From Desulfobacula sp. (GTDB lineage: Bacteria > Desulfobacterota > Desulfobacteria > Desulfobacterales > Desulfobacteraceae): DNA of 52,603 nt. Positions 28,163 to 31,164 of the stretch are shown here, piece after piece (within the stretch, counting starts at the first letter, position 1; each line of letters opens with the position of its first letter). The stretch spans positions 1-52,603 of the forward strand of contig JABGOU010000025.1 of the NCBI GenBank assembly GCA_018645325.1. Direction: 5' to 3'. Under the pieces are notes generated by a model that was given only the letters and a program-made list of their open reading frames with translations, had not been told where the DNA came from and ran no database searches. The position numbers and the translations under genes are program-made.

Positions 28163-28525
28163 ATGAAAAAAGAAGATTTAGGATTTTTTAAGAATCTTTT
28201 GACTGACAGGCTTAAAGAGCTCCTTTCCCATGCTGACAGCACAGTCACCGGTATGACCAAGCCAAAAGAAAATTTTGCCGATCCAACGGACAGGGCTTCA
28301 CATGAATCAGACAGAACTTTTGAACTTCGTATAAGAGATCGAGAACATAAACTGATAAAGAAAATAAAAAAAGCGCTTGTACGTATAGAAAATGAAACAT
28401 TTGGAATTTGTGAGGTTTGTGAAGAAGATATTTCCCTTCAAAGGATTATGGCAAGGCCTGTCACTACCCAATGCATTGACTGTAAAACCCGTGAAGAGGA
28501 TATGGAGAAGGCCCTCGGAATTTAA
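28163..28525 (+). CDS. dksA: DksA/TraR-family zinc-finger protein
   Basis: 120 residues. A coiled-coil N-terminal half is followed by a four-Cys zinc finger, CEVCEEDI...CIDCKTREED. The DPTDRASHESDRTFELRIRDRE segment supplies the acidic tip and matches DksA-type transcription factors that bind the RNA polymerase secondary channel. It has its own strong promoter and lies 18 bases before the PHP-RNase III gene, so the two may share a transcript. Confidence 0.85.
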   Translation: MKKEDLGFFKNLLTDRLKELLSHADSTVTGMTKPKENFADPTDRASHESDRTFELRIRDREHKLIKKIKKALVRIENETFGICEVCEEDISLQRIMARPVTTQCIDCKTREEDMEKALGI

Positions 28526-28543: not shown

Positions 28544-30106
28544 TTGATTGATCTTCATGTACATTCTACAGCGTCAGACGGGTCTTTTTTTCCTTTAGAA
28601 ATTATGAACCTGGCTAAAAAGGCCGGGGTTAGTGCCATTTCGATAACAGATCATGACACCATAGACGGTGTTAAAGAAATCCTAAAATTTCCTCTACCCC
28701 TATTCCCTGAATTTATTACCGGGGTTGAAATCAGTTGTGAGCCTCCATCCGAATTCAGTGAAGTGGGAAGCGTTCATCTTTTGGGATATGGTTTCAGTAT
28801 TTATGATAAAAATCTTAATGCTATTTTAGATGATGCAAAAAAAGCCCGTTCCCAGAGAAATCCAAAAATAATTGAAAAATTAAACAGCCTTGGATTTGAT
28901 ATCACTATCCAGCAGGTTGAGGATCGGTTTGGAGCTGACCAGACAGGACGTCCCCACATTGCAGAACTAATGATGGAAAAAGGATTCGTCAAAACCTTTA
29001 GTGAAGCCTTTGACAAGTATCTTGGAAAAGGTAAACCTGCTTATGTGGATAAATATAAAGTCACCTGCCGACAGGCAATTCAAACAATTTTGCAGGCAGG
29101 CGGGATTCCGATTCTGGCGCATCCAGGCCTTTTGAACTTTAATAAAAGCCATCAGATCGAAAATTTTATCGACGTTCTTATGGCAGATGGCCTTTCCGGA
29201 ATAGAAGTATATTATACTGATCATGACAAGCACATGACATCTTATTATCAAGACCTTGCAGATCAAAAGAAGATTCTTATGACCGGGGGTTCAGATTTCC
29301 ATGGGACATTTAATAAAGGTGTTAACCTTGGTTCGGGTAAAAATAATTTGAATATTGAATATTCTTTGTTTAAAAAATTAACTTTTGAGCTGGAAGAAAT
29401 CAAAGAAAAATATTCAGATTTCACCATCCTTGAAAACAATATGGGATATTCATTTAAAAATAAATCATTGCTAAATGATGCCTTATGTCACCGATCATTT
29501 TTAAATGAAAACCAGGACTCGTGTTTTAGTGATAATGAGCGGCTTGAATTTTTAGGAGATGCTGTTCTAGGGTTATGCATCGGGCATTTGCTCATGGAAA
29601 AAAGTCCATCAAAAAATGAAGGGGAACTTTCAAAGCTAAGAGCTAACCTTGTCAGTGAGACTGCTCTTGCTGATATGGCACGGTTTATTGATCTTGGCAG
29701 GTTTATCAGACTTGGAAAAGGAGAAGCCTTTTCTCGTGGTTTTGATAAAAACTCCATATTATCAGATGCCTATGAGGCTGTGATTGCTACAATTTATCTG
29801 GATGCCGGGTTTGATACTACCTACATGCTGATAAATGATCTTTTCAAAGAGACCCTTGAAAAAAATTTGTTTAATGAAAATATTATAGATTATAAAAGCA
29901 TGTTGCAGGAATTTGTTCAGGAGCAAGGTGAGGCAACCCCTCAATATGAAGTTATAAATGAGATCGGTCCTGACCATGATAAAACTTTTGAGATCAGTTT
30001 AAATATTTTGAATATCCATTCCAAAGGGTTTGGGAAAACAAAAAAAGCAGCAGAGCAGGCTTGTGCAAAACAAGCCTTAAAAATGTTGAAAAAAATAGAT
30101 TCCTGA
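28544..30106 (+). CDS. rnc: PHP phosphoesterase-RNase III fusion protein
   Basis: One 520-residue frame holds two enzymes. Residues 1-280 are a PHP domain of the YciV/TrpH type, with metal ligands HVH (5,7), D12, DH (36-37), E62, H79, H193 and D251/H253. Residues ~290-440 are RNase III with NERLEFLGDAVL (E335, D339) and D408/E411; residues ~448-518 are a double-stranded RNA-binding domain. Both active sites are complete. The start is TTG 28544 because the DLHVHST motif begins at once. An internal ATG at codon 300 has no ribosome site, so a separate RNase III is unlikely to be made by initiation there. YciV in E. coli trims 5' ends of rRNA, so the fusion could couple cutting and trimming. Confidence 0.9.
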   Translation: MIDLHVHSTASDGSFFPLEIMNLAKKAGVSAISITDHDTIDGVKEILKFPLPLFPEFITGVEISCEPPSEFSEVGSVHLLGYGFSIYDKNLNAILDDAKKARSQRNPKIIEKLNSLGFDITIQQVEDRFGADQTGRPHIAELMMEKGFVKTFSEAFDKYLGKGKPAYVDKYKVTCRQAIQTILQAGGIPILAHPGLLNFNKSHQIENFIDVLMADGLSGIEVYYTDHDKHMTSYYQDLADQKKILMTGGSDFHGTFNKGVNLGSGKNNLNIEYSLFKKLTFELEEIKEKYSDFTILENNMGYSFKNKSLLNDALCHRSFLNENQDSCFSDNERLEFLGDAVLGLCIGHLLMEKSPSKNEGELSKLRANLVSETALADMARFIDLGRFIRLGKGEAFSRGFDKNSILSDAYEAVIATIYLDAGFDTTYMLINDLFKETLEKNLFNENIIDYKSMLQEFVQEQGEATPQYEVINEIGPDHDKTFEISLNILNIHSKGFGKTKKAAEQACAKQALKMLKKIDS

Positions 30107-30129: not shown

Positions 30130-31164
30130 ATGATCCAGGTCCAAAAACCCCTTGTTATCCCCGTATTTATTCCCCATGCCGGGTGCCCTCATCAATGCGC
30201 ATTCTGTAACCAGTCTATTATTACCAGTCAAAAATCAAAACTGCCGGATAAAACCGATATCCATAATATTGTACAACAGTATTTACAATATAAAGGAAAG
30301 CGGGAAAGTGTGGAGCTTGCTTTTTTCGGAGGTAATTTTTTGGGTCTGGGCCATGATAAGATTCTTCAGTTGCTGGATATAATCCAGCCTTATATTAAAG
30401 AAAAAAAAATTGATGGCATACGATTTTCCACACGGCCGGATACCATTGCAAGAACTACGTTGGATCTTATAAGGCCTTATAATGTCTCTGTAATTGAACT
30501 GGGTGTTCAGTCCATGAACCAAGAGGTTCTTATAAAATCAAAAAGGGGTCACACGGGCAATGATACGATAAACGCGATAGACATTTTGAAGGCATATCCA
30601 TTTAAAATCGGTGTCCAGGTAATGGTTGGGCTGCCTGGCGATACTGAAGCATCTTTGTTCGAAAGTACAAAAAAACTTGCCCGACTTGCCCCGGATTTTG
30701 CTAGAATTTATCCTTTAATGGTGTTAAAGGGCAGCATGATGGAACGCTGGTATTGCCAGGGCAGATATCAGCCTTTAGGTCTTGAAAAAAGCATCGGGCT
30801 TGTGAAAAAAATGGTTGGCATATTTAGAGCTGCCAATGTCAAAGTGATTCGTATAGGTCTTCAGGCTTCCGACATGATGGAAGATGAATCCATGGTACTT
30901 GCCGGCCCCTGGCATCCGGCTTTTGGCCATCTGGTTTTTTCTGAGATTTTATATGATCTTGCCTGCAGCAAGATAGAAAAATACAAAAGAGAGCCAAAAT
31001 CCAGGAAACTTTTTTTAAGGGTTCATCCAAAATCAGAATCACAATTAAGGGGCAATAAGAATAGTAATTTCAAAAGACTTGGTAAAAGGTATTCAGAAAT
31101 TGAGTTTTCAATTCTTCTGGATGAAATAATTCCTTTATACCAGGTGGAGATAAGTGGGCAATAA
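30130..31164 (+). CDS. Elp3-like radical SAM protein
   Basis: 344 residues. Cluster-binding cysteines CPHQCAFC are at 19, 23 and 26, followed by AFFGGNFLGL, FSTRPDTI and IELGVQSMNQEVL, typical of oxygen-independent Elp3/HemN-type radical SAM enzymes. No acetyltransferase domain follows, so it is not a full Elp3. It lies 23 bases after the RNase III fusion. Relatives often sit next to rnc in deltaproteobacteria, which hints at RNA modification, but the substrate is unknown. Confidence 0.82.
   Translation: MIQVQKPLVIPVFIPHAGCPHQCAFCNQSIITSQKSKLPDKTDIHNIVQQYLQYKGKRESVELAFFGGNFLGLGHDKILQLLDIIQPYIKEKKIDGIRFSTRPDTIARTTLDLIRPYNVSVIELGVQSMNQEVLIKSKRGHTGNDTINAIDILKAYPFKIGVQVMVGLPGDTEASLFESTKKLARLAPDFARIYPLMVLKGSMMERWYCQGRYQPLGLEKSIGLVKKMVGIFRAANVKVIRIGLQASDMMEDESMVLAGPWHPAFGHLVFSEILYDLACSKIEKYKREPKSRKLFLRVHPKSESQLRGNKNSNFKRLGKRYSEIEFSILLDEIIPLYQVEISGQ

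Follow-up and report, generated by a model that had tools for sequence, protein, structure and literature searches.

The stretch of DNA analysed here (the window) comprises 52,603 nucleotides (nt) from Desulfobacula sp. (assembly GCA_018645325.1, contig JABGOU010000025.1), and the subject of this report is a gene on its forward strand, at positions 28544-30106, in which a PHP phosphoesterase and an RNase III are encoded together. According to the open reading frame and its translation, the gene is a single frame of 520 codons without any internal stop. It starts at a TTG (28544-28546), the sole ATG, GTG, or TTG between the preceding stop and this point. The PHP domain occupies residues 1-270 (28544-29353), with its metal ligands and 5′-phosphate pocket intact, and is followed by a linker of residues 271-294 (29354-29425), in which AlphaFold2 predicts a helix at 273-289. 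The RNase III nuclease domain covers residues 295-445 (29426-29878), approximate limits drawn from Pfam, NCBIfam, and residue conservation, and a double-stranded RNA-binding domain, matched by Pfam dsrm, covers residues 450-515 (29891-30088).

In Pfam, the PHP model PF02811 matches residues 3-146 with 36.1 bits against a cutoff of 26.4, and the models Ribonucleas_3_3 (PF14622, residues 306-432), Ribonuclease_3 (PF00636, 332-422), and dsrm (PF00035, 450-515) all exceed their cutoffs. The NCBIfam model TIGR02191 matches residues 297-514 with 234.8 bits (cutoff 166.25), which identifies the C-terminal half as RNase III, and in the window's genome, which is 90% complete, the fused gene is the sole RNase III match. 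Judged from its sequence, the encoded protein places a PHP domain ahead of a complete RNase III with its double-stranded RNA-binding domain on one frame, and the linker that joins them contains a predicted helix. A preliminary description of this DNA had claimed just such an uninterrupted arrangement, and the reading frame, Pfam, and NCBIfam agree on it.

The fusion is widespread in the family. In a sample of 78 family genomes, whose states were counted by hand from the match listing, 64 contain a single full-length unbroken match and a further 5 contain two matches within one open frame, giving 69 fused. Only part of the fusion is seen in 4 genomes (G067, G070, G025, and G046), some of these matches lying at contig ends; rnc alone is found in one (G012), and no RNase III part in 4 (G006, G040, G045, and G049). 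Several of the 78 genomes consist of one contig. Named records in which the fusion is seen include assemblies of Desulfobacula, Desulfamplus, Desulfatibacillum, and Eth-SRB1, so that the family and the order considered here are probably Desulfobacteraceae and Desulfobacterales, or near to these. Because the unbroken frame recurs across these genomes, a read error or frameshift is ruled out, and the preliminary claim of a true fusion holds in the family, where homologues are not everywhere split near codon 285. One draft genome (G050, contigs C222 and C339) contains two full-length fused copies, reflecting either a duplication or a mixed assembly.

Beyond the family, 66 genomes of the order, representing 58 families, were compared by hand count. 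Eight of them (7 families) have PHP and rnc fused, and in 50 the two genes are same-strand neighbours within ~460 nt, which points to the origin of the fusion rather than to an error. In the other 8 (G078, G079, G082, G090, G107, G114, G117, and G123), the two lie on different contigs or were not both found; in G079 each is near a contig end. Outside the order, no full-length match was present in 284 genomes of the phylum among the matches listed, in which full-length ones rank first; ten of the 284 have both matches listed, on different contigs or, in one genome, ~128 kb apart (hand count). At least 55 PHP relatives have titles other than Desulfobacteraceae or Desulfobacterales (L148, L150-L203), and none showed rnc in its flanks; some of these flanks are cut by contig ends, some titles give no order, and these relatives represent the sole coverage of other phyla. 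Among the database matches listed, none bears a title that names a PHP-RNase III fusion, which does not prove absence.

For a closer comparison, 123 loci were assembled (36 fused, 74 adjacent, and 13 neither), including two Escherichia coli controls and a PHP paralogue from the window's genome. They were picked non-randomly: the top matches in the family and the full-length ones in the order came first, followed by roughly one for each family left, and six from outside the order. The 110 fused or adjacent loci span 50 families; 9 families include a fused locus, with both states present in 4 of the 9. The loci share the order dksA-like, PHP, rnc, and radical SAM. Within the window, the dksA/traR-like gene (120 residues; Pfam DksA_N and zf-dskA_traR) lies directly upstream of the fused gene at 28163-28525 on the forward strand, and the radical SAM gene (Pfam Radical_SAM and Radical_SAM_C) lies downstream at 30130-31164 on the same strand. 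A dksA-like relative precedes PHP in 109 of the 110 loci, the remaining one ending too early to tell, and a radical SAM relative is found on the same strand in 104, with 4 lacking it and 2 ending too early.

The tree was built from 103 loci, with 13 near copies removed beforehand and 6 outgroup rows containing PHP only. The fused and adjacent states require 8 changes on it, counted by a quick method with 37 of 100 inner branches open; for the fused label, well supported branches demand at least 4. A single clade of the 23 fused rows is rejected (approximately unbiased test, p-AU 3.5e-5). Since the fused loci fall into more than one clade, the state has changed several times. These changes may be gains or losses: some fused rows branch early in the tree, so that old fusions followed by later splits are possible.

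Both catalytic halves appear to be maintained in the fused proteins. The metal ligands of RNase AM are given as H13, D20, H45, E72, D255, and H257 (PMC9410882). Their equivalents in the window's protein are H5, D12, H37, E62, D251, and H253. H15, H83, and H198 of RNase AM, which we count as further ligands of the PHP family, correspond to H7, H78, and H193, and all nine positions are invariant in the 36 fused loci. The 5′-phosphate pocket of RNase AM, formed by R107, R110, R141, and F161, is represented by R102, R105, R136, and F156, and it is invariant in 36/36 fused loci and in 119/119 rows. In the other half, E335, D339, D408, and E411, which we take to be the catalytic acidic residues of RNase III, are likewise invariant in 36/36 fused loci. 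As a separate observation, residue 408, presumably D114 in the numbering of E. coli RNase III, is D in 50, N in 18, and G in 6 of the 74 adjacent loci, as compared to D in all 36 fused ones, kinship among loci being ignored in this count. Three fused proteins (L077, L078, and L079; family f1, genus g2) bear an insertion near PHP position 200, of at most ~46 residues (L078).

RNase III makes early cuts in ribosomal RNA (rRNA) precursors, leaves 5′-monophosphate ends, and works as a dimer. Its partner here is most likely an enzyme acting on the 5′-phosphate ends that RNase III makes. RNase AM is reported to degrade 5′-phosphate RNA processively, as observed on a 40-nt RNA (PMC9410882), and two further reports assign it a part in rRNA 5′ maturation (PMC10250234; PMC8406224). 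We regard it as about an even chance that the PHP enzyme tethered ahead of the complete RNase III binds 5′-phosphate ends and that cutting and 5′ trimming are coupled. The RNase III half would cut double-stranded RNA, including rRNA precursor stems, leaving 5′-monophosphate ends, from which the tethered PHP domain would then remove nucleotides in the 5′ to 3′ direction, in the manner of E. coli RNase AM on rRNA. A single polypeptide would make the two activities both coupled and equimolar. The broader proposal, which we hold tentatively and rate below an even chance, is that of a cut-and-trim ribonuclease present in several lineages of one order: a double-strand cut would be followed by shortening of the new 5′-phosphate end in cis, so that the 5′ maturation of rRNA and other RNase III products would be coupled, and in relatives where the two genes are neighbours, two separate polypeptides would assemble into an equivalent complex.

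The rRNA precursors themselves give limited guidance. In G034 and G016, the pairing of the 23S leader and trailer beats each of 100 shuffles, while the 16S stretches compared with shuffles in these genomes do not pair better; one 16S stretch, before the L204 transfer RNAs, had no shuffle control. Long 23S leader/trailer pairing beside the 23S ends is seen in the L204 and L205 rRNA operons, which also share a similar 16S leader helix, ending ~60 nt before the 16S start and, where shuffled, no better than chance. RNase III products would in that case need 5′ trimming. No 16S rRNA match was found in the window's own genome. Overall, the precursor stem results do not discriminate between the explanations considered below.

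Several observations weigh against a coupled cut and trim. R201 is reported to form a salt bridge to the sulfate in the RNase AM structure (PMC9410882). Its equivalent in the window is L196, and the 36 fused loci have L in 30, S in 3, I in 2, and F in 1, never R. The PHP half is below both NCBIfam equivalog cutoffs, with 165.9 bits of 400 for NF041577 and 148.9 of 375 for NF047791 (RNase RNM), and it scores nearer the nucleoside bisphosphate phosphatase model than RNase RNM. The preliminary description of a PHP domain with every metal ligand of the YciV/TrpH group holds for the ligands, which are intact, and is corrected by these scores. The window's genome also contains one match above cutoff to TIGR00649 (MG423), which we take to be the RNase J model, and two RNase E/G matches; genes of both kinds are present in 6/6 family genomes searched. 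A role for the PHP half as the sole possible 5′ exonuclease is ruled out by these TIGR00649 matches, above cutoff in all six. A second, stand-alone PHP gene, 31% identical, lies elsewhere in the window's genome (L002, G000 C83:38953-39849). In G012 (L080 1588-3757), the dksA-like, rnc, and radical SAM genes follow each other in the usual order with no PHP between them; this assembly is 88% complete, and its PHP-less RNase III is 60% identical to that of the window. RNase III can thus work without PHP, and together with the RNase J-type and RNase E/G genes this cluster suggests that the PHP half is of help but dispensable. Finally, the tree counts changes and not gains, and it would also fit a small number of early fusions that were split again later. 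The PHP paralogue L002 has an altered 5′-phosphate pocket (R, K, R, and I) and occurs in many other family genomes.

In a first alternative, the PHP half is a phosphatase of small molecules or nanoRNA, acting on 3′-phosphoadenosine 5′-phosphate (pAp) or very short 5′-phosphate fragments. It would remove the final products of RNA decay, or compounds that inhibit it, and its link to RNase III would serve dosage or regulation instead of the trimming of one RNA molecule by both halves. For the PHP half, as for all six PHP proteins scanned, the best NCBIfam PHP model is the 3′,5′-nucleoside bisphosphate phosphatase, and the lack of conservation at R201 points the same way. CV1693 is a nucleoside bisphosphate phosphatase. 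Residues contacting adenosine monophosphate are common to it and RNase AM (PMC9410882). However, RNase AM, which has the same pocket, is itself reported there to be processive on a 40-nt RNA, and the fact that PHP and rnc fuse while the flanking junctions of the cluster do not suggests a substrate path shared with RNase III. We therefore regard such a phosphatase role as a possibility, though an unlikely one.

The flanking junctions also bear on a second alternative, that of a neutral fusion, in which chance removed the stop between two neighbours, each half retains its former function, and nothing depends on the tether. The median gap between PHP and rnc in the 74 adjacent loci is 21.5 nt, fused and separate states coexist in 4 families, and PHP could be lost in G012, all of which would be consistent with a chance event. 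On the other hand, the two flanking junctions have similar median gaps of 10 and 13 nt, and they are fused in 0/109 loci and in 1/104 (L114, a partial match), as compared to 36/110 for PHP/rnc; this control is less than a formal test, as the loci are related and were chosen by score and family, with 24 of the 36 fused loci belonging to the window's family. That neighbouring junctions are hardly ever fused despite similar gaps speaks for a cause particular to PHP and RNase III and makes chance proximity less likely as the full explanation. In addition, both sets of active-site residues are kept in 36/36 fused loci, and the fused state is maintained across a family. A fusion without consequence is accordingly considered doubtful.

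The TTG start of the fused gene is found at the same position in the 16 other same-genus fused loci examined (L003-L017 and L021), 6 of which have an additional ATG or GTG five codons upstream of it. The internal ATG at codon 300 (29441-29443, forward strand) falls on the N-terminal edge of the RNase III domain and is an unlikely start; the preliminary description had noted that it lacks a ribosome site, and the calculated Shine-Dalgarno pairing of +0.4 kcal/mol confirms this. An ATG occurs within the 14 codons ahead of the RNase III domain in 70/74 adjacent loci but in only 8/36 fused ones; any start codon is present there in 20 of the fused loci and none in 16. In contrast, the best Shine-Dalgarno in the junction region hardly differs (median -2.75 in fused and -3.75 in adjacent loci), and a value of -6 is attained at 10.6% of 1098 background sites. 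Start codons were used as evidence because Shine-Dalgarno strength, with such near-equal medians and frequent background matches, scarcely separates the two states and was dropped. Judged from these codons, the separate rnc start region is lost in most fused loci. The AlphaFold2 model of the fused protein, calculated from 47 rows comprising the window and related loci only, has a mean predicted local distance difference test (pLDDT) of 92.5 and a predicted template modelling score (pTM) of 0.82; the helix 273-289 between the halves is ordered, and the linker (271-294) has a mean pLDDT of 87-96 per ten residues.

A third alternative, that an RNase III of its own is additionally produced from the frame, through internal initiation or linker cleavage, is very improbable: although the start codons retained in 20/36 fused loci (ATG in 8) make internal initiation possible in some species, a few having a fair or good ribosome site (e.g., L030, -10.0), the window's best alternative to the ATG at 29441 is a TTG 26 codons before the domain edge with a pairing of -4.5, 5/36 fused loci lack any ATG, GTG, or TTG in the stretch reaching from 35 codons ahead of that edge to 8 beyond it, and the linker is predicted to be an ordered helix.

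To our knowledge, the question of which enzymes finish rRNA 5′ ends beyond a few model bacteria is largely open. The occurrence of the fusion in several families, almost solely at this cluster junction, is genomic evidence for joint action of RNase III and an RNase AM-type enzyme, and the fused protein offers a single molecule on which the coupling of cutting and trimming can be directly probed. No description of an RNase III joined to a PHP domain in one protein was found among the papers listed from open-licence PubMed Central full texts, mostly judged by title and opening of the abstract; those listed included the RNase AM papers and one on CoAlation (PMC5989533). The architecture is new and is built from two known enzyme families.

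The fused protein shares with RNase AM (also RNM, YciV, or TrpH; E. coli rnm, Vibrio cholerae 9etk) the PHP fold, the metal ligands, and the R-R-R-F 5′-phosphate pocket. Unlike the E. coli enzyme, to which its PHP half is 29% identical, it has L in place of R201, is below the RNase RNM cutoff, and is joined to RNase III. It also differs from the 3′,5′-nucleoside bisphosphate phosphatase (CV1693, 2yb1) in being fused and in reaching 165.9 bits against that model's cutoff of 400. With bacterial RNase III (TIGR02191; E. coli 7r97, Aquifex aeolicus 2nug), it has in common the nuclease and double-stranded RNA-binding domains, the catalytic residues, and a score above cutoff, whereas the N-terminal PHP domain and linker bring it to 520 residues, as compared to 226 in the E. 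coli structure chain. DNA polymerases, PolX, and TrlF are other proteins with an added PHP domain. The present protein resembles them in using PHP as an added catalytic module and gives weak NCBIfam matches to their models, but its partner is an endoribonuclease and its PHP subgroup is that of RNase AM and the bisphosphate phosphatases.
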